From Siphonodentalium dalli (lineage: Eukaryota > Mollusca > Scaphopoda > Gadilida > Siphonodentaliidae): DNA of 64,000 nucleotides. The notes beneath the pieces are model-generated. The model ran no database searches. It had not been told where the DNA came from and saw nothing but the letters and a program-made list of their open reading frames with translations. Shown in pieces: positions 2,232-56,622 of this stretch. Made by a program: the position numbers and the translations under genes. Positions within the stretch are counted from its first letter, which is position 1. Each line of letters starts with the position of its first letter. The stretch spans positions 126,981,989-127,045,988 of the forward strand of contig CP136068.1 in NCBI GenBank assembly GCA_032622095.1, written 5' to 3'.

Positions 2232-3434
2232 ATTTTTTTTGCTCATTTGCTCATTTTTTTTTGCTCATTTGCTCATTTATTTGCTCATTTGCTCATTTAT
2301 ATTGCTCATTTGTTCATTTTCTTGCTCATTTGCTCATTTTTTTTGCTCATTTGCTCATTTTTATTGCTCATTTGCTCATTTTCTTGCTCATTTGCTCATT
2401 TTCTTGCTCATTTGCTCATTTTTATGCTCATTTGCTCATTTTTATTGCTCATTTGCTCATTTTCTTGCTCATTTGCTCATTTTTTTGCTCATTTGCTCAT
2501 TTTTATTGCTCATTTGCTCATTTTCTTGCTCATTTGCTCATTTTTTTGCTCATATGCTCATTTATTTGCTCATTTGCTCATTTTTATTGCTCATTTGCTC
2601 ATTTTCTTGCTCATTTGCTCATTTTTTTGCTCATTTGCTCATTTTTATTGCTCATTTGCTCATTTTCTTGCTCATTTGCTCATTTTCTTGCTCATTTGCT
2701 CATTTTTATGCTCATTTGCTCATTTTTATTGCTCATTTGCTCATTTTCTTGCTCATTTGCTCATTGTTTTGCTCATTTGCTCATTTTTATTGCTCATTTG
2801 CTCATTTTCTTGCTCATTTGCTCATTTTTATGCTCATTTGCTAATTTTTATTGCTCATTTGCTCATTTTTATTGCTCATTTGCTCATTTTCTTGCTCATT
2901 TGCTCATTTTTTTGCTCATTTGCTCATTTTCTTGCTCATTTGCTCATTTTCTTGCTCATTTGCTCATTTTCTTGCTCATTTGCTCATTTTTATGCTCATT
3001 TGCTCATTTTTATTGCTCATTTGCTCATTTTCTTGCTCATTTGCTCATTTTTTTGCTCATTTGCTCATTTTTATTGCTCATTTGCTCATTTTCTTGCTCA
3101 TTTGCTCATTTTTATGCTCATTTGCTCATTTTTATTGCTCATTTGCTCATTTTTATTGCTCATTTGCTCATTTTCTTGCTCATTTGCTCATTTTTTTGCT
3201 CATTTGCTCATTTTCTTGCTCATTTGCTCATTTTCTTGCTCATTTGCTCATTTTCTTGCTCATTTGCTCATTTTTATGCTCATTTGCTCATTTTTATTGC
3301 TCATTTGCTCATTTTCTTGCTCATTTGCTCATTTTTATTGCTCATTTGCTCATTTTCTTGCTCATTTGCTCATTTTCTTGCTCATTTGCTCATTTTTTTG
3401 CTCATTTGCTCATTTTTTTGCTCATTTGCTCATT
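2232..3434. repeat. TGCTCATT minisatellite, 1.2 kb
   Basis: About 60 head-to-tail units of 19-21 bp, each a dimer of TGCTCATT plus a T-rich spacer ending TTT, TTA, TTAT or TTTCT. Spacer variants alternate in short runs, suggesting higher-order amplification. The plus strand lacks stop codons in all three frames, so long low-complexity ORFs arise in every frame. They encode only permutations of L, I, C, S, F, A and H and are not credible genes. The minus strand is rich in TGA. Confidence 0.97.
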
Positions 3435-6642: not shown

Positions 6643-7066
6643 TTAAAAATAACTTGATGTGGTCGCACATTATTTTACGAATACTGCTTTGGTGGTACAA
6701 GTGACGACGAAAGCTACCGATACAAAGCACACACATGTGCAATGGAAATAATTGTCAATTAAAGTAGAATGGGGAGCAATATTCCAGTAACCTATACCAC
6801 GGAGCAATGTATATGGCAGAGGTAACATGCTTACTACTACAAACTGTTCAATAAGTTCCCAATGCAGATAAAATAAGACGCATACAAACTATGTATGTCA
6901 CATGTGTTGATAATGTGATGAGCGTTAGACTGATGCTCTCGTGGCAAATATTCAATCATGTATTATTATTAATTTTCTGCCAAAATGCCCCCTGTATGAT
7001 CTTCATTTGAGTGTATAGTTTTATTTAATTGTGCTCGCCACCATGATTATGTGCCCGCATATTATA
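6643..7066. other. Unassigned sequence
   Basis: No ORF of note and no recognisable repeat in this ~420-bp interval. Confidence 0.4.
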
Positions 7067-7613
7067 AAGTTATTATACAATGTTGTGTACAGTATGTGTT
7101 TTTCTTGTACGAATCCAGGTTGTTGTGAAAAGTCATATTGGACGAGACACGCCAGTGTCGAGTCCAATATGACTTTTCACCACAACCTGGACGAGTACAA
7201 GAAAAACTCATACTGTACACAACATTGTATAATGACATTTTTATTATCCATCTGTACGTTTATCCAAATTTTGGAAATAAAACTTTTGTGGTTATTTTTG
7301 GTATTTGTCGGCACTTAATTCTCTATAAAAGCCTGTACCGTATTATCCCGTATATTGATCATCAGAAAGCATGATTTGGAAAAGTAAACACGGAAGTGAG
7401 AAAAAACTCAATCCGGAAGTGAAACGTCTGCTAAAATCCATCAATGTTGCGCGCGCATCACAATTTCACCGATTCATTTCGCAACAGAGTTAATTCGTGA
7501 CGTCACGGAGTCCAATATGACTTTCGGGAGTCCAATATGACTTTTTCCAGGACTATCACTTGGCGGCTTTTGCCCAATCGGAAATGGTGTTAGTTAAGTG
7601 ATGGATAATAATA
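7067..7613. mobile_element. Palindromic dispersed element, copy 1
   Basis: 7067-7245 is a large imperfect palindrome centred near 7153, with arms carrying AAGTCATATTGGAC and GTCCAATATGACTT. The following ~370 bp is bounded by TTATTATCCATC (from 7241) and its inverse GATGGATAATAA (to 7611). AGTCCAATATGACTTT recurs twice near 7510-7545, so the arm motif is re-used inside. A second copy in the same order lies at 52833-53395. It encodes nothing and is probably a foldback or MITE-type DNA element. Confidence 0.82.
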
Positions 7614-10247: not shown

Positions 10248-11349
10248 GAATTGAATGATAAAGAAGGAAAGTAAACTGGAGGTCACCCCGAAGATCCATA
10301 TGAAATTTGGTGATGATCGGATGAGGGATGTAGGATGCGCCAAAGGATATAGTCATACAAAGAATAAATTATAAGAGGCTGCTGGCAGCCTTATTTTTAA
10401 ACAAATTTCTGGATTGATGAGAGTGATCCTGTACAAGTTTACTTGTTGTGCCTTTTTCTTTTAGCATTTTTAGCATAACTTTACAAAGAAGTTTATTTAT
10501 TGCCATGGGTTGGCGTCCGTCCGTCCGTGCGTAAGCAATTTCCTTCGGCACGCCCTACAGGCTGCACTCCTCATTCGATCTTCACCAAACTCTCTATATA
10601 GCTTCAGTGTGGCCTGTAGATGGTAAATATCGAATGTTTCCGAATTTCGATGAAAAACATGGTCGCCAGCAGCCATGTTGGATTTCAAATTTGAATACAT
10701 CGGCACACCCTACAGTCCGTGTTTATGGCCGGATCATTGTTTAATTAAGCAGGCTCGATTGTGATCACCTGCAGATGGGTGCTATCGAATTTGAACGATT
10801 TTCGATGAAAAACATGGCCGCCGGCAGCCATTTTTGATTTAACACTTTGCATCACTAAATCCTTTGGCACACCCTACAGACCACATCACTCCGATCATCA
10901 TCAAACTTCATATGGGTTGTCGGTGTGACCTATAGATGGGAGCCTCGTATTTTGACCGATATTGTTTAAAATATGGCCGCCAGCAGCCATCTTGGATTTA
11001 AAATTTGAATCCATCGGCACACGCCGCATCTCGCATTTATTAGATAACTGCCGGCAGCCATCTTGGATTTTACTCTTTATAGGCCTAAATCCTTTGGCAC
11101 ACCCTACAGACCACATGCCTCATCCGAGTATCACCAAACTTCATACGGATCTTCTGGGTGACATCTAGATGAGAGCCTGCTATCCAGAAATTTGTTTAAA
11201 AATATGGCTGCCAGCAGCTCTCTTATAATTTATTCTTTGTATGACTATATCCTTTGGCGCATCCTACATCCCTCATCCGATCATCACCGAATTTCATATG
11301 GATCTTCGGGGTGACCTCCAGTTTACTTTCCTTCTTTATCATTCAATTC
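10248..11349. mobile_element. 1.1-kb foldback element with ~145-bp inverted arms
   Basis: The left arm (10248-10390, starting GAATTGAATGATAAAG) is the near-perfect inverse of 11205-11349. Between the arms are diverged ~155-175-bp repeats built from three boxes: GGCACACCCTACAG, ATCACCAAACTTCATA and ATGGCCGCCAGCAGCCAT. The element interrupts the DIRS-like retroelement between RNase H and recombinase. A target duplication may be hidden in the symmetric AATT at both ends. It has no coding capacity. The ATGGCCGC box also appears in inverse near 48000. Confidence 0.88.
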
Positions 11350-11521
11350 ATTGCTCAGCAAAAACTCCTTCAAGTTGAGCTACAGTGTCATTGACATGTT
11401 CATTTCTCTTGTTAGGCAAATCCAATATTGTACCAGATAACATATTTTGCTTTGATTCTAAACACCAACTCACACGCGGTGACATTTTTTGCTCCGATTC
11501 TGCATTATTATTTGTCATTAA

Positions 11522-11913
11522 CCCTTTACCCAACAAACCGGCCAAAACCGGCCAAATAAAGCTTCAACAGCCTAAACTATCTTCGGTCTGTCTCAATAAA
11601 ACCATACAAATATGGATATCATTGGAACCGGCTCCTTGACCACATTGTGATGGTTACAGTTATGCCCTGTGCCAATGCATTCTCTTATATATGCGAGTCG
11701 ACCATAGGTCGCCTCGCATATATAAGAGAATGCATTGGCCTAAAAAAAATCTTTTTTTAACACTTTTTACCATTTTTTCTTACATTCTTTAACAATTTTA
11801 TTATTTTTAATGTGTTAAGCCAATGCATTCTCTTATATATGCGAGGCGACCTATGGTCGACTCGCATATATAAGAGAATGCATTGGCACAGGGCCCTTCT
11901 GTTGGCTAAAGGG
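11522..11913 (+). mobile_element. TTAA MITE with two TATA hairpins, copy 1
   Basis: A 392-bp element flanked by TTAA on both sides (11518-11521 and 11914-11917), with inverted ends CCCTTTACCCAACA and TGTTGGCTAAAGGG. TTAA targets and CCC ends are diagnostic of piggyBac-type transposition. Inside are two ~80-bp hairpins with arms CCAATGCATTCTCTTATATA and its inverse, separated by a T-rich spacer. It is inserted in the DIRS-like element upstream of its recombinase. It is non-autonomous; short ORFs across the hairpins are artefacts. Confidence 0.93.
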
Positions 11914-11917
11914 TTAA

Positions 11918-12300
11918 ATGGAGTAAGACTAATCAGTTTGGACAACGTATTTTGAAATGTCCTCTTTTGGCTATACCAAGTTCAGTATTGTGTCCTACTA
12001 GAGCCTATAATAATATGCTTTCAATGTACCAGGTTCGTCTTCAGATCTCCAGAATTTATGTACAAGAAAAATAGTGTTTTAGTACCATTTACATGCAACC
12101 AGTATCAAAAATTCATTAGAAGATGCATTAGAAACATTGGTTTGGACCCATTAAAATTCTCCTCATAGTTTTCGCAGAGGAGGGCCCCCCTGGGCATTTC
12201 AAGGTCAGGTTTCAGGAGAGCTTATTCAAGTCATGGGAGACTGGGCCAGTGACTCTTACAAACGTTATTTAAATTATTCCTTGAAAGACAGGTTAGTTGC
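11918..12300 (+). pseudogene. DIRS-like tyrosine recombinase remnant
   Basis: The first recognisable piece reads VLCPTRAYNNMLSMY (about 11985-12030). After frame changes the C-terminal catalytic region appears as PHSFRRGG...WAF and then ELIQVMGDWASDSYKRYL (about 12161-12275). The H-x-x-R pair and the terminal tyrosine of the R-H-R-Y recombinase set are visible. A frameshift lies close to 12160. Recombinases placed after RNase H are the hallmark of DIRS-order retroelements, where they replace a DDE integrase. Confidence 0.85.
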
Positions 12301-17401: not shown

Positions 17402-17792
17402 CCCTTTACCAAACAAACCGGCCAAAACCGGCCAAATAAAGCTTCAACAGCCTAAAATATCTTCGGTCTGTCTCAATAGAACCATACAAATATGGATATC
17501 ATTGGAACCGGCTCCTTGATCACATTGTGATAGTTACAGTTATGCCCTGTGCCAATGCATTCTCTTATATATGCGAGTCGACCATAGGTCGCCTCGCATA
17601 TATAAGAGAATGCATTGGCCTAAAAAAATCTTTTTTTAACACTTTTTACCATTTTTTCTTACATTCTTTAACAATTTTATAATTTTTAATGTGTTAAGCC
17701 AATGCATTCTCTTATATATGCGAGGCGACCTATGGTCGACTCGCATATATAAGAGAATGCATTGGCACAGGGCCCTTCTGTTGGGTAAAGGG
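17402..17792 (+). mobile_element. TTAA MITE with two TATA hairpins, copy 2
   Basis: Nearly identical to 11522-11913. TTAA flanks at 17398-17401 and 17793-17796, ends CCCTTTACCAAACA and TGTTGGGTAAAGGG, with two CCAATGCATT hairpins inside. High similarity between copies implies recent mobility relative to other repeats here. Confidence 0.94.
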
Positions 17793-18780: not shown

Positions 18781-19015
18781 CCATGTTAACTGGTAATCGG
18801 GATTCATATGCCAATTTTATGCCTTTCATTACGGGAGCTGCGCTGGTGCAACATCAAAGATGCTCCCATGGGGGAAGTCTCGCATATATTTTAGAGAATG
18901 CACTGGCTTACAAGGTGAAGGTAAATACCGTTAAGCCAATGTATTCTCTTATATACGCGACGCTCCCTATGGGAAACTCGCGTATATAAGATAATGCATT
19001 GGCACAGGGTTTTCG
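18781..19015. mobile_element. Diverged TATA-hairpin element
   Basis: A hairpin with arms GCCAATGTATTCTCTTATAT and ATATAAGATAATGCATTGGC (about 18934-19005) is preceded by a half hairpin at 18880-18905. It matches the hairpin modules of the TTAA MITEs but with diverged loops and no clear CCCTTT end. Probably an older member. Confidence 0.65.
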
Positions 19016-19419
19016 CTAAAAATTCAGAAAGCTTCAGGCATGAGTTAACCGGTCTTTTGGTGCAATAAGGCTGGTAAGCAGTGTCTATATCATCAAATTG
19101 ATAAATGTGCGAAATATCCATGACTTGTATTGGATATGTTCTGAATCGGTACGCAATATTCACCAGTCTCTGTAAACAGTACAACTCATTAGACATAGTC
19201 CGATATTTTGAGCAGGGTAATATGATGGGAACCTAGAACGAGAGAGTAGTCGAGAGTGATGGTCGAAAAGATAAAGCGATCTTCTCTTTCACCCCAAAAT
19301 AGGAACAGCTACATATATGCACATAAAGTAAAACAATAATTGTTTGGGAGATAGTTGCGCATGTTGTAATAAAGTGGAAGGATTCAAGTGGTGATCTCCC
19401 CAGTATATGAGTACAATAT
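19016..19419. other. Unassigned sequence
   Basis: No repeat or gene is recognised. A minus-strand open frame reading across the adjacent hairpin is an artefact of that repeat. Confidence 0.4.
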
Positions 19420-19423
19420 TTAA

Positions 19424-19815
19424 CCCTTTACCCAACAGAAGGGCCCTGTGCCAATGCATTCTCTTATATATGCGAGTCGACCATAGGTCGCCTCGCATAT
19501 ATAAGAGAATGCATTGGCTTAACACATTGAAAATTATAAAATTGTTAAAGAATGTAAGAAAAAATGGTAAAAAGTGTTAAAAAAAGATTTTGTTTTGGCC
19601 AATGCATTCTCTTATATATGCGAGGCGACCTATGGTCGACTCGCATATATAAGAGAATGAATTGGCACAGGGCATAACTGTAACTATCACAATGTGGTCA
19701 AGGAGCCGGTTCCAATGATATCCATATTTGTATGGTTTTATTGAGACAGACCGAAGATATTTTAGGCTGTTGAAGCTTTATTTGGCCGGTTTTGGCCGGT
19801 TTGTTGGGTAAAGGG
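19424..19815 (-). mobile_element. TTAA MITE with two TATA hairpins, copy 3
   Basis: Inverse orientation relative to copies 1, 2 and 4. TTAA at 19420-19423 and 19816-19819. It begins CCCTTTACCCAACAGAAGGG and ends TTTGTTGGGTAAAGGG, with both hairpins and the intervening A-rich spacer retained. Confidence 0.94.
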
Positions 19816-30045: not shown

Positions 30046-30438
30046 CCCTTTACCCAACAAACCGGCCAAAACCGGCCAAATAAAGCTTCAACAGCCTAAA
30101 ATATCTTCGGTCTGTCTCAATAGAACCATACAAATATGGATATCATTGGAACCGGCTCCTTGACCACATTGTGACAGTTACAGTTATGCCCTGTGCCAAT
30201 GCATTCTCTTATATATGCGAGTCGACCATAGGTCGCCTCGCATATATAAGAGAATGCATTGGCCTAAAAACAAACTTTGTTTTAACACTTTTTACCATTT
30301 TTTCTTACATTCTTTAACAATTTTATAATTTTGAATGTGTTAAGCCAATGCATTCTCTTATATATGCGAGGCGACCTATGGTCGACTCGCATATATAAGA
30401 GAATGCATTGGCACAGGACCGTTCTGTTTGGTAAAGGG
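30046..30438 (+). mobile_element. TTAA MITE with two TATA hairpins, copy 4
   Basis: TTAA at 30042-30045 and 30439-30442. Ends are CCCTTTACCCAACA and TGTTTGGTAAAGGG. Both hairpins are intact. It resembles copies 1 and 2 closely and has the same downstream flanking repeat as copy 2. Confidence 0.94.
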
Positions 30439-35830: not shown

Positions 35831-36222
35831 TGATCTAGACTGAATTTTCTATGGTTGATCTTTCTCCACATCGAGACGTTCATGAATTAATTCTGGGTGT
35901 TTTAATTATATTTGGCGAACAAAATTGATGCAGAAGTGTAATAAATACAGTAATAAATTATTTCCGAGAATTATGTTAAATAATTCACTCGAGGCGATAG
36001 ACGTTTAGGTACGAAACCCGTGCGCTAACGCGCACTCGTTTCTTACAGACGTCTCTCGCCTCTTGTGAATTATTTAATGTAAATCTCGAAACCAATTGAT
36101 TACTCTATTTATTACACTTCTGCATCAATTTGGTCCGCCAAATATAATTAAAACACCCAGAATTAATTCATGAAAGTCTCGATGTGGAGAAAGATCAACC
36201 ATAGAAAATTCAGTTTAGATCA
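35831..36222. mobile_element. 392-bp foldback element
   Basis: TGATCTAGACTGAATTTTCT at the left pairs with AGAAAATTCAGTTTAGATCA at the right; arms run ~180 bp each through CTCCACATCGAGAC, AATTAATTCTGGGTG and ACTTCTGCATCAAT. The apex is near 36025-36040, around GTGCGCTAACGCGCAC. Almost the whole element is one hairpin. No target duplication is clear. Confidence 0.9.
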
Positions 36223-43839: not shown

Positions 43840-43955
43840 CCCTTTCAGTGCTAAGTCCGATTTTTGTATCAACCCATATTTCCTTGTTCATTTTTCAAAT
43901 TTATTCGATTATAATAATGTTATACATTGATGGAAAGAGCTTGGCACTGAAAGGG
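43840..43955. mobile_element. 116-bp TTAA MITE
   Basis: TTAA at 43836-43839 and 43956-43959 flank inverted ends CCCTTTCAGTGCTAAG and CTTGGCACTGAAAGGG (15 of 16 match). The interior is AT-rich filler. The ends are piggyBac-like but differ from the CCCTTTACCCAACA family, so a different transposase probably mobilised it. Confidence 0.93.
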
Positions 43956-45983: not shown

Positions 45984-46291
45984 GACATGCGTTGGTTTTA
46001 ACATCAAGTTGCATCGTTTGTTCTTTGTATATGTTCAAGAGGATCTCACATATTTATTCCAATGCAATAATCTCAACTTGGCAAATTCATGATGAGTGAT
46101 GGCGACTGAATCAGACCAATTTGTCCGAACAGCACCACTAATATCCATAGTTCTGCGGTGGGACAATTTTTTACTCTAGTTTTGAGTCAATGGTTACATG
46201 GCAAATCGCCGACAGAGTGGCCAGGATAAGATGAAAATGTTCAATTGGTTCGCGTCGTCAGCTCGGGCAATTTTCAAAACATACTACAGTA
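45984..46291. other. Unassigned sequence
   Basis: No repeat or gene was recognised in this ~300-bp interval. Confidence 0.4.
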
Positions 46292-46546
46292 ATGCTTTAA
46301 GTAATCGAATCTTTAACTACAGCAGAATTATGGGTAACTTTTCAGGATATAGTCGGAAATATGGCTTGTTGCCATTCATCGGAAAGCTCTCCCTTTAGCC
46401 GAGAGCTTTCCGATGAATGGCAACAAGCCATATTTCCGACTAAAGGAAGAGCTTTCCGATGAATGGCAACAAGCCATATTTCCGACTAAATCCTGAAAAG
46501 TTACCCATAATTCTGCTGTAGTTAAAGAGTCGATTACTTAGGGCAT
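46292..46546. mobile_element. Foldback element family L, copy 1
   Basis: Left ATGCTTTAAGTAATCGA and right TCGATTACTTAGGGCAT are inverse ends; arms continue through CAGCAGAATTATGGGTAA and TATGGCTTGTTGCCATTCAT. A ~45-bp portion of the right arm (GAGCTTTCCGATGAATGG...) is duplicated in tandem. TA flanks both sides. Second copy at 55524-55757, single arm at 2190. Confidence 0.9.
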
Positions 46547-47479
46547 TATTTTACTTCAGAAACGTGCACTCCAAAATTCAGCCCCAGCTTTAGGACCAAC
46601 GGGCTCTCGTCAGCAGAACAACCGTACAAGGTTTGTGATGATTCAATCAATTACCCTCCCATTATAATAATTATCTACTTCGACGGCCAATCAGGCCTGT
46701 GATTTACACACAAAACCACTCAATTATACTTCTGCCTTTTCGTTGTATTCAATAATTGTCGAGATACGAAACGATAATCCGGCCCTGCTATAGACAGTGG
46801 CACGTGATACCTGTATTAGCCAATCGATATGTTTTTGAGGATGCATGTGTAACTATGAAATGTATTTTCAATTGGACGAGCTTTTGCTGATAACTAACGG
46901 AAAATTCTTCGCGATTGATTTCGGATAACAATCACGAGTTCATTCGGGGTCAAATATATGCGATGTATCGCACGGTTTGGCCTCGACGCAACATGTGGAG
47001 GACGTAAACGGAGACTATGCACTATAATCAGACCATGATTCCATACCAATTTAATTAACGACCCTTAACCGGAAATTATTCTGGTCAAAACTTTAATTAA
47101 ATTTATAAAAAAATAAATAATTAATTTTAAATGTTTAGACCGACCCTGCAGTATCACAAAAATTTAATTATAATACGAATAACTGTCGAAATGACACATT
47201 ATAAAGAATAAGTGCTATAGATAATTTAATAAGACAGAACAAGAAAAAGGATAAGATTCAAAAACGGAGATTATTCAAATGTGCATGTGATAATAGATAT
47301 ATTGTTATAAGAAGTTATTTTTTCATTTTTAATGTATATTTATTATGTACAACTTTAATATGTAATTGAGACAGACTATGAAAAAAAAAAAAAATTATAA
47401 AAAAAAAAAATGATTCCATACCAAGATAGTGTTTTGTCGTCGTTTCATAGGGTCTCCATTTGGGCTCTACGCATCATAC
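46547..47479. other. Unassigned, with A-rich tracts
   Basis: 47380-47410 is poly-A rich. No gene or terminal repeats were recognised. Confidence 0.4.
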
Positions 47480-48729: not shown

Positions 48730-48973
48730 CCCTTTACCCAACAAAACGGCCCAAAACGCCCAAATAAAGCTTCAACAGCCTAAAATATCTTCGGTCTGTC
48801 TCAATAACACCATACAAATATGGATATCATTGGAACCGGTTCATTGACCACATTGTGATGGTTACAGTTATGCCCTGTGCCAATGCATTCTCTTATATAT
48901 GCGAGGCGACCTATGGTCGACTCGCATATATAAGAGAATGCATTGGCACAGGGCCGTTCTGTTGGGTAAAGGG
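48730..48973. mobile_element. TTAA MITE, one-hairpin variant
   Basis: TTAA at 48726-48729 and 48974-48977; ends CCCTTTACCCAACA and TGTTGGGTAAAGGG. It has the left unique part of copies 1-4 but only one CCAATGCATT hairpin, at 244 bp. Precise loss of one hairpin suggests recombination or slippage between the two hairpins of a longer copy. Confidence 0.94.
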
Positions 48974-51672: not shown

Positions 51673-51676
51673 TTAA

Positions 51677-51836
51677 CCCTTCCATGACTACATGGAGATT
51701 CCTGAAAAATATTTACCTTGATCTTGTAAGCCAGTGCATTTTCTTATATATGCGAGGCTCCCTAGTGGAGCCTCGCTTATATAAGATAATGCACTGGCAT
51801 AGAATCTTTAGCGCTGCATCAGCGCAATTCCCGTTA
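51677..51836. mobile_element. Diverged TTAA hairpin element 1
   Basis: TTAA at 51673-51676 and 51837-51840. The left end is CCCTTCCATGACTACATGG. A hairpin with GCCAGTGCATTTTCTTATAT and ATATAAGATAATGCACTGGC occupies the centre. The right end, GCTGCATCAGCGCAATTCCC, is not the inverse of the left but matches the right end of 52326-52570. Confidence 0.75.
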
Positions 51837-51955
51837 TTAACCTCATGAAATGGCCCGATTTATCACCAAATTAGTCAAAATCATGAAAATTATCTAAGTT
51901 AAAGGGACGTGGCACGTTCGAATCCCAAACATGATGTATGCGTAATTTGATAAGA

Positions 51956-52128: not shown

Positions 52129-52325
52129 TTCACGATATGATGGCTATTGGCATACAATCTCAAAACATACCTTCCGAAGATTTCCGAACAAACTCGTATT
52201 GTATTGTTTTCTTTGCTCTTTGCGAGAGGTGTCTGACGCGAGCATGATTGTGATGCTCACACCTTCAAAGTTTGATTTGAAGACCTGAGTAGCGCATATA
52301 TACCGGCCATGGATATGGCATTTAA

Positions 52326-52570
52326 CTCTTCCATGACTGAAGCTTCCTGAATTTTTTTCGGAAACCCTGTGCCAAATGCATTTTCTTATAAATGCGAGTC
52401 TCCCATAGGGAGCTTCGCATATATAGAGAATACACTGGCCTAACAATATCTACCTTGACTATGTAAGTCAGTGCATTATCTTATATATGCGAGGCTCCAT
52501 ATGGGAGACTCGCATATATAAGAGAATTCATTGGCATAGGATCTTAAATTCTGCATCAGCGCAACTGCGG
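52326..52570. mobile_element. Diverged TTAA hairpin element 2
   Basis: TTAA at 52322-52325 and 52571-52574. The left end is decayed (CTCTTCCATGACTGAAGC). Two CCAATGCATT-type hairpins are present, both with changed loops (CTCCCATAGGGAG and CTCCATATGGGAG). The stems stay paired although the loops differ from the other family. Confidence 0.75.
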
Positions 52571-52832
52571 TTAATTTTACAAATTTTTTGATGTTTTTTT
52601 ATATATTGACGCCAGTGGGTAAATGAATTGTACTGATTGGAAGCACTTTTTATAGTTTTTTTTTAGTTTGCTGGTTTGCCGAAGGTCAGATCTGGGGTCA
52701 ATACTATCAAACTTCTACACGTGTAATTTACAAGAGGGTAAAACTTTGAGTACTATAATCGGCAAAATTACAATAATACTCATCACTTGCATGTGGTTTC
52801 TTGCAGTTGGGTTCTTATTAGTAACATTATAA
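52571..52832. other. Unassigned sequence
   Basis: A short AT-rich interval. Nothing was recognised. Confidence 0.4.
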
Positions 52833-53395
52833 AGTTATTATACAATGTTGTGTGCAGTATGGTGTTTTTCTTTTACGAGTGTAGGTTGTGATGAAAAGTC
52901 ATATTGGACGAGACACGCATTGTCGAGTACAATATGACTTTCACCACAACCTGAAAAACACATACTCTACACAACATTGTATAATAACATTTTTTTATTA
53001 TCCTTCTATATGTTTATCCAACTTTTTGGGAATAAAACGTTTGTGGTTATTTTTTGGTAATTGTGGGCACTTGATACTTTTTTAAACCCTGCATTTGGTC
53101 ATCAGAAAGTATGATTTGGATCAGTAAACACGGAAGTGAAAACAAAACTTAATGCGGAAGTGAAATGTCTGCTAAATCCACCACAGTATTGTGCGCGCAT
53201 CACAATTTCACAGATTCAGCTGACAAAGTTACTCCGTGACGTCACGGAGTCTCAATAAAAAAAAGTCATATTGAACACTCGGGAGTCCAATATGACATTC
53301 GGGAGTCCAATATGACTTTTCACTGGATTATCACGTGACGAATTTTGCCCAATCAGAATTAGTGTTAGTTAAGGGGTGGATAATAATTTGTATTA
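52833..53395. mobile_element. Palindromic dispersed element, copy 2
   Basis: Collinear with 7067-7613: the palindrome with AAGTCATATTGGACGAGACA, the TTTATTATCC boundary, CGGAAGTGAAA, GTGACGTCACGGAGTC, GGGAGTCCAATATGAC and the closing GGATAATAA. It is diverged by many substitutions and small indels, so the two insertions are old. Confidence 0.85.
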
Positions 53396-54714: not shown

Positions 54715-55523
54715 TAATGTATCAACATGTTGGGCTTATTAAGCACACAACATACAATGTATCGCAAATATATTGTGTAATTTCGTAACTTAAGTTTGGA
54801 AAGTCCCTCTAGAACCAAAGAACTATATTGCGAAACGGCGTGATTTGGTTCTCAGATTATTTTATCACTACAAAAGTCTGAACGCATATGGACGACAACA
54901 GTAATGGCAAATCAAACATAAGAGTTCTAATTTGCTGCCATTTTGCTAATTAAGTATAGCGTGCGAAAATCGTCAACAAAACTATCGTATCACTCTAATT
55001 CTCCATTCTGTCAATAAGTTTCAGTGCGGGAATTGTTCTCAAAGCACATAGGAATTTTTTCTTTGGTCGATCGGTTTCACCATGTTGTTTGGGAAACAAA
55101 CCCGTACTAAATATAGTGAGAACGGAAGTATGACTGGTGCACTCTGGTAGAGATTGGAAAATATCATCACGATGTGGGGAATATTTATTACATTTTCACG
55201 AGTTAACAGAAATTAACTTAGATTAATAGCGGGCGCGTGTGCGAACAACTAATTAAACAAATATATATGTATACTGTATACGCATGTGTAGAGGTTATGG
55301 TAATTGGCTCCGATCACATTCAGCATTTCAGACCGTTCACAGAAGTAGTTAGTTACCAGTAGTTTTTCATCTGCGATCACTATCGTATAATTAGCATTTC
55401 ATATCTCGTTCTTTCTTCACGCAATATGCCATTGATGGCCACTAAAAAGTCGACGTCGTCTGTGACAAAATTGAAGCACCTGTTGATTCTAGGAATGAAA
55501 TTTGAGCGAAGGCCGATACAGTG
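54715..55523. other. Unassigned sequence
   Basis: No repeat, exon or RNA gene was recognised. Confidence 0.4.
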
Positions 55524-55757
55524 ATGCCCTAAATAATCGACTCCTTAACCACAGCAAAATAGTTGGTAATTTTTCAGTATTTAGTCGGAAATAGAATGGC
55601 AACAAGCCATAATTCCGACTAAATCCTGAAAAATTACCCATAATTCTGCTGTGTACTGAGAGCTTTCCGATGAATGGCAACAAGCCATATTTTCGACTAA
55701 ATCCTGAAAAATTACCCATAATTCTGCTGTGGTGAAGGAGTCGATTATTTAGGGCAT
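55524..55757. mobile_element. Foldback element family L, copy 2
   Basis: Ends ATGCCCTAAATAATCGACTC and GAGTCGATTATTTAGGGCAT are inverse; TG flanks both sides. The right part repeats TTACCCATAATTCTGCTGTG and ATGGCAACAAGCCATA twice in tandem. Shares the duplicated-arm structure of 46292-46546. Confidence 0.9.
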
Positions 55758-56348
55758 TGCTATAGATCTTTTTTTCACAGTTCCGCGTCATGCAACTTCG
55801 ATTCAAATCTTGTAAGGTAGCTTACGTATCTCTTCAATTTTGTAGTAGGTTTTATCGTCTGCATAAAATGAAAACACCATAGTCTCGATCTGGACGAGAT
55901 AATTAAACAGCTGACTACGAAATTGGTCGCCGGTGAAAAGCTGACTACACGTGTACGTGTGGATTTTCCTTGCGTGGTCACGTGGTTGCCTGTACCCGAC
56001 GTTCGACCTTTAAGAACTCTGGTGGCGATTACTCGTTTGGATCAGACTATTTCCTCTCCCGCTGCCTTGATCTGATTAATAGAGTATACACCCTGTGTGT
56101 GACCATGCGTAGATCCTGAGTTTCATACACCCTGTGTGTGACCATGCGTATATCCTCTGTTTTCAAGAAACTCTCTCTCTCCGTGAACTCACGTTACCTT
56201 TTGTTTTCCGCAGCCCGATTCCAAGGAGAAAATCCATAAGTCAGAAGACTATAAGAGAGTGGCATTGAGGCTGTAGAATGCCTTTACGGCGAATCTCACG
56301 GATGAGCCCCTCGATTTACTGCAGGATAACAATAGTTATACGATATTG
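55758..56348. other. Unassigned; short direct repeat
   Basis: ATACACCCTGTGTGTGACCA and GCGTA occur twice in tandem at about 56085-56155 (about 40-bp period). Otherwise unassigned. Confidence 0.5.
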
Positions 56349-56622
56349 CCTCATCTCGACCAAGCCTTGAAATAGTGTGTCTGTCATTTGCAGAATGAGG
56401 TCCACAGAGGGTGAATTTAGTGATGCTACCCCGCTTAGCGGACTAGCATAACCAAATTCACCCTCTGGGGACCTCATTCTGCTTACACTTCAGCAGAATG
56501 AGATCCCCAGAGAGTGAATTTGGTGATGCTAGCCCGCTATGCGGGGTAGCATCACTAAATTCACCCTCTGGGGACCTCATTCTGCAAATGACAGACACAC
56601 TATTTCAAGGCCTCATCTCGAC
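56349..56622. mobile_element. Nested GGTCCCCAG palindrome, copy 2
   Basis: An outer palindrome (CCTTGAAATAGTGTGTCTGT at 56365 and ACAGACACACTATTTCAAGG to 56610) encloses two tandem inner hairpins, 56390-56482 and 56493-56585. Each inner hairpin has arms GCAGAATGAGGTCC and AGGGTGAATTTAGTGATGCT and a loop of CCCGCTTAGCGG or CCCGCTATGCGGGG. CCTCATCTCGAC occurs directly on both sides (56349-56360 and 56611-56622). Confidence 0.9.

Follow-up and report, generated by a model that had tools for sequence, protein, structure and literature searches.

The locus at 11522–11913 belongs to a small family of TTAA-bounded repeats, and it raises the question of why a short mobile element should carry paired hairpins with almost perfect arms in its interior. 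These hairpins might be promoters, precursors of structured RNAs, sites that serve transposition, or the outcome of the way in which the element itself has been copied. The analysis covered the 64-kb stretch of DNA in which the locus lies (hereafter, the window), which was the search space for every copy, motif, and control count given below.

Alignment within the window places five copies of the family, here called family A, at the starts given in a preliminary description of this DNA (11522, 17402, 19424, 30046, and 48730), and exact TTAA adjoins all ten of their ends, as had been claimed. Copy 1, a TTAA MITE with two hairpins, occupies 11522–11913 (392 bp, plus strand), with exact TTAA on both sides and with zero and one mismatches to CCCTTTACCCAACA at its two ends. 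Copies 2 (17402–17792, 391 bp, plus strand), 3 (19424–19815, 392 bp, minus strand), and 4 (30046–30438, 393 bp, plus strand) align with it over their full length, with identities between the long copies of 96.7–98.2% in the five of six pairs that were aligned. The fifth copy (48730–48973, plus strand) has only 244 bp. The proposed common terminal repeat was also confirmed, since CCCTTTACCCAACA is exact at seven of the ten ends and carries one mismatch at the other three; the terminal inverted repeats measure 14 bp, or about 22 in the 48730 copy. With up to two mismatches allowed, CCCTTTACCCAACA is matched ten times in the window, against 0.43 expected, and all ten matches are family A ends. 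A scan for TTAA-bounded terminal repeats (14 bp, at most three mismatches, span up to 2.5 kb) returned 23 pairs in the window, compared to 0–3 (mean 0.8) in ten order-3 Markov sequences; the 23 take in all five family A copies, together with several chance or cross-copy pairs. The family A pattern is real and far above chance.

The elements are small (244–393 bp), multi-copy, and non-coding in the sense that no coding assignment was made, which corresponds to the general description of MITEs. They also show the TTAA target-site duplication and the CC[C/T]T-type terminal repeats of piggyBac-type elements. Family A can, therefore, probably be classed with the small TTAA MITEs of known piggyBac-like type, with a putative transposase partner. 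No piggyBac transposase with matching CCCTTTACCC-type ends was found in the window among the 10 of 238 open reading frames (at least 60 aa) that were scanned for Pfam domains and transposases, a set outside which the element interiors lie; the same ten gave three weak Pfam matches, all under the curated cut-off. A search of the window with the joined flanks of family A, for an empty site, matched across the junction only at the sites themselves. Close to copy 1, the segment 10401–11195 is bounded by perfect 14-bp TTAA-flanked inverted repeats and sits in a longer inverted repeat, pairing 10248–10414 with 11182–11349 at 98%.

The interior of the long copies has a defined order. In copy 1, on the plus strand, a 14-bp terminal repeat and 135 bp are followed by a first hairpin (hp1, 69 nt, 11671–11739, with 33-nt arms that are 97% complementary), a 79-bp AT-rich spacer (11740–11818) separating the two hairpins, a second hairpin (hp2, 69 nt, 11819–11887), 12 bp, and the other terminal repeat. 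The corresponding hairpins lie at 17551–17619 (hp1) and 17698–17766 (hp2) in copy 2, at 19450–19518 and 19598–19666 in copy 3, and at 30195–30263 (hp1) and 30344–30412 (hp2) in copy 4. Each of the nine family A hairpins is a 69-nt palindrome with 33-nt arms, a 3-nt centre, and one off-centre mismatch common to all nine. In copy 1, hp2 is the exact reverse complement of hp1 (69/69); this holds for three of the four long copies, the fourth giving 68/69, and the off-centre mismatch is mirrored as well. The interior of the long copies is, hence, a palindrome of palindromes, an unusual mirrored pair. CTCTTATATATGCGAG is exact in all 18 arms and, with up to three mismatches, is matched 28 times in the window, against 0.51 expected, while a scan for palindromic hairpins gave 20 in the window and none in one order-2 Markov control. 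The hairpins had been described as about 80 bp long. The individual palindromes are shorter, at 69 nt, and 80 nt is instead the length of the arms formed between hp1 and hp2. Predicted folding energies are −55.1 and −55.8 kcal/mol for the single hairpins, and −155.7 kcal/mol (z = −27.75) for the pair folded as one stem with 80-nt arms, so that a family A transcript could, in these models, fold either as two hairpins or as one long stem. Matches to CTCTTATATATGCGAG in four viral contigs (L001–L004) were set aside as irrelevant, consisting of a near-identical stretch without the palindrome that looks coding; two further patterns searched in the viral contigs gave no match.

Pairing of the hairpins, as first described, applies to four of the five copies. 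The 48730 copy has a single hp2-type hairpin (48872–48954, 40-nt arms) and is without hp1 and the spacer, being composed of the left part, hp2, and the right part; its hairpin differs from hp2 at 0 of 69 sites, compared to 9 changes in 175 sites in the remainder. The left arms of hp1 and hp2 have 27 identical bases in common, and recombination between these arms, with loss of hp1 and the spacer, would fit the present structure of this copy.

The original list of copies was correct for family A, but it omitted five diverged hairpins (18935–19003, a half hairpin within 18860–18912, 51730–51798, 52371–52439, and 52467–52535). These belong to a second, older group of three copies, called group B. 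The copy at 18836–19044 (approximate limits, minus strand) contains the first full hairpin and the half hairpin, with TTAA at 19045–19048 and a decayed other end. On the plus strand, with limits that take in TTAA at each end, lie 51673–51840, with the one hairpin at 51730–51798, and 52322–52574, with both of the remaining hairpins. For the four full hairpins of group B, the best match to a family A hairpin lies at 83–88% over 72–83 nt, and seven of the 69 sites separate the family A hairpin from the majority hairpin of group B, in which ties were resolved by row order. The similarity extends, where kept, to the bases next to the hairpins, with CCCTGT outside and CTAA plus a TAA-type end inside. 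The ends of group B differ from those of family A, reading about TTAACYCTTCCATGAC on one side, and the non-hairpin parts of family A (the 48730 ends and the 11522 spacer) gave a best match of only E = 0.086 against the 52322 copy, one of the three in the group. The mirrored arrangement is less clear here, the hairpin pair of 52322–52574 being alike at 60/69 sites when inverted vs. 58/69 when direct, a weak difference.

Group B is probably a TTAA family too, judging from the way in which similarity between copies stops at or beside TTAA: between the 51673 and 52322 copies, it begins at a TTAA and ends within a few bases of another. TTAA is a common word, however, with 453 occurrences in the window, and the scan found a 14-bp TTAA-bounded inverted repeat with at most three mismatches in none of the three copies, which could reflect decay, the copies being old.

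The two groups differ in how their hairpins have diverged. In family A, changes from the consensus affect 1 of 621 hairpin sites, compared to 28 of 1190 elsewhere (P = 1e-4), or 20 of 875 non-hairpin sites when the spacer is left out (P = 2e-4). Counted by column in the four long copies, the figures are 1/138 for the hairpins vs. 17/253 (P = 0.005), or vs. 10/175 without the spacer (P = 0.026). All these divergence tests are approximate, as the copies are related and do not constitute independent samples, and selection, correction, or subfamily structure are all possible causes of the low hairpin divergence. In group B, by contrast, pairwise differences are 39/219 in the hairpins vs. 55/272 in the rest (per-pair P of 0.67, 0.72, and 1.0), and the two arms of a hairpin differ at 3, 5, 5, and 8 of 31–33 positions. 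The arms had been called near-perfect, which suits family A, where a single unpaired change, in the hairpin at 19598–19666 of the 19424 copy, adds to the common mismatch, but not group B. Likewise, stem divergence equal to that of the unpaired parts, named beforehand as one of the observations that would speak against a function of the stems, is found in group B and not in family A. Since the hairpins of group B have diverged as much as its other parts and their arms mismatch, pairing is not generally maintained after insertion. No ongoing correction between arms was seen in group B, the within-hairpin distances falling inside the between-copy range.

Compensatory change in the stems, whose examination had been suggested, could be followed among the copies of the window. 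Two adjacent stem pairs are compensated between A and B, accounting for four of the seven differing sites (CTCCC/GGGAG vs. CGACC/GGTCG), and in family A the change is found throughout the four arms, as copying from arm to arm would produce. A mismatch two positions away from these pairs is retained. Two other stem pairs show a two-sided change, each in one single group B copy. Over the whole stem, the signal is modest: with six distinct rows, the covariation score is 0.135 vs. 0.079 in shuffles (reached by 4 of 500), 92.1% of cells are paired vs. 89.4% (15 of 500), and four pairs are changed on both sides vs. 2.5 (91 of 500).

The same mirrored plan is found in an element unrelated in sequence (56364–56611, no strand assigned), in which palindromes at 56390–56482 and 56493–56585 lie between 26-bp outer inverted repeats. 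These palindromes, of 93 nt each, are identical at 87/93 positions when inverted, compared to 82/93 when direct. Mirrored double palindromes would, thus, have had at least two origins in this genome, and this recurrence in an unrelated element speaks for a structural mechanism rather than for a function specific to one family. The segment 38195–38286 is a probable single-hairpin relative of the 56364–56611 element.

We consider it moderately likely that family A and group B are piggyBac-type, non-autonomous MITEs carrying a double-hairpin cassette as a module, the pairing of which results from youth and from homogenization of the arms in the source lineage. Family A would be moved in trans by a piggyBac-type transposase, as suggested by its TTAA flanks and CCCTTT ends, and its interior would constitute a portable cassette, consisting of the 69-nt palindrome and its inverted copy flanking a spacer. 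As an older group, probably bounded by TTAA too, has the same hairpins but unrelated ends, the cassette may have passed from one family to another by exchange or capture. The young copies of family A would have spread recently from a source element, with template switching or hairpin correction keeping its four arms alike; after insertion, mismatched copies would decay like neutral DNA, as in group B. The sequences, hence, point to coordinated arms in the source lineage and to neutral decay once a copy has been inserted. Homogenization of inverted-repeat arms by template switching is documented, with yeast cases shown (PMC8604942). Nevertheless, the retained mismatch beside the compensated pairs argues against arm copying, which would need very short copying tracts to leave it in place.

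The mirrored TATA boxes noted in the preliminary description led to the proposal that each hairpin could serve as a bidirectional promoter of TATA type; transcription would then run both outward from the element and inside it. The motif is certainly there: in all nine family A hairpins, one arm carries TATATAAG in one orientation and the other arm in the opposite one, and of the 33 occurrences counted over both strands of the window, 25 fall within A or B hairpins. Its conservation is marginal, since across nine group B arms 3 of 72 sites are changed in the CTTATATA core vs. 29 of 225 in the rest of the stem (P = 0.047), a difference that does not survive the exclusion of two polymorphic columns (20/207 for the rest of the stem, P = 0.21). 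In addition, the unrelated double-hairpin element at 56364–56611 is without TATATAAG, and TATATA is common in the window (250 occurrences over both strands, corresponding to 125 places). A promoter role is, thus, very improbable, and the TATATAAG motifs would be part of an AT-rich palindrome arm. Selection of the hairpins as structured RNAs, such as miRNA or siRNA precursors, is also quite unlikely, although it can account for the low divergence of family A hairpins and the two base pairs compensated between A and B, and it agrees with the very stable folds predicted, particularly for the double hairpin. Made1, a mariner derivative, is a different MITE from family A. Such a role has been proposed for the Made1-derived hsa-mir-548, Made1 being a MITE the transcript of which could form a hairpin, as could that of family A (PMC1784062). 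The decay of group B hairpins, as fast as that of the rest of the element, and centres of only 3 nt in family A do not fit such a role. Rfam gave 25 matches at E ≤ 1 in 11400–12050, of which 21 are miRNA rows, and some of the E-values are very low (MIR841 being best, at E = 1.5e-19), but all 25 are under the gathering score (90.1 bits vs. 200 for MIR841), and no family reached it in the whole window. These sub-threshold matches may be an effect of long perfect pairing, and they do not count against a role as RNA. The window was also searched for tRNAs, and none was found. Overall, promoter or small-RNA function is not supported by the sequence beyond the motif and the fold.

The palindromes could also tune transposition by binding the transposase, or a host factor, inside the element. 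Such a role has parallels, as the CRD dimers of piggyBac and piggyBat bind palindromes in their ends, and piggyBat is restricted by an internal transposase site (PMC11707139); moreover, the hairpins are common to groups with different ends, as are the interiors of coral CMITEs (PMC2872659). However, the palindromes bound by CRDs are 14–19 bp long and near the ends (PMC11707139), whereas those considered here are internal and of 69 nt, no sequence tie between palindromes and ends was seen, and single-hairpin copies exist in both groups (48730 and 51673), with one copy each that may have arisen after insertion. Binding is an unlikely explanation. A bolder possibility, to which we also assign a low probability, is that the mirrored double palindrome behaves as a selfish and semi-independent module, passed between TTAA families with different ends, that would aid amplification, for example, through transposase binding or template switching coupled to replication, and the arms of which would be actively corrected in young elements. 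Young family A keeps its palindromes and old group B loses them, which offers a natural test between arm correction, RNA selection, and a role in transposition.

It is usually the ends that serve to define a MITE, and the interior is taken as filler. What A and B share is an interior, a structured mirrored double palindrome, and the nearest precedent for this is offered by the CMITEs of Acropora corals, which vary less between families in the interior than at the ends (PMC2872659). CMITEs resemble family A in their TTAA duplication, mostly CCCTTT-type ends, small non-coding nature, and presumed piggyBac-type mobilization (PMC2872659), and an interior common to families with different ends is likewise found in A and B (ends and spacer checked in one group B copy). 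They are about 100 bp long with a 75-base interior, and are not known to carry a mirrored double palindrome (PMC2872659). Comparison of the published 60-base CMITE consensus (PMC2872659) with the window gave a best match of 13 bases (E = 0.10). More generally, family A has the TTAA target, CC[C/T]T terminal motif, and short terminal inverted repeats of piggyBac transposons and MITEs (PMC2872659), from which MITEs it differs by the double palindromic cassette. Foldback transposons, such as Tetris, Tm1, and Galileo, also have inverted repeats able to fold back, but, compared to the descriptions available for them, family A has short terminal repeats, internal and separately palindromic hairpins, and a TTAA target. 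No mirrored double-palindrome TTAA MITE appeared among the literature matches listed, which is no proof of its absence from print. The elements are, thus, best seen as a variant, with a mirrored double-hairpin cassette added to a known TTAA MITE type.

The window contains several other repeats. At 43840–43955 lies a single 116-bp TTAA MITE with CCCTTTCAGTGCYA ends, like coral CMITEs in size and ends, though without a match to the CMITE consensus. Long inverted arms and repeats of hairpin segments characterize the foldback elements at 46285–46553 and 55517–55764, which are related to each other, one stretch of 100 bp being 94% similar. Two related long-hairpin elements with ATTATACAATGTTGTG-type arms (7061–7244 and 52831–52991) are found inside a longer stretch of 77% similarity, and an inverted repeat at 35831–36222 has 174-nt arms, 91% complementary and 44 nt apart. 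Finally, 2234–3434 is a long minisatellite of about 59 copies of a unit of about 20 bp (TTTTTTTGCTCATTTGCTCA), with long open frames on the plus strand.
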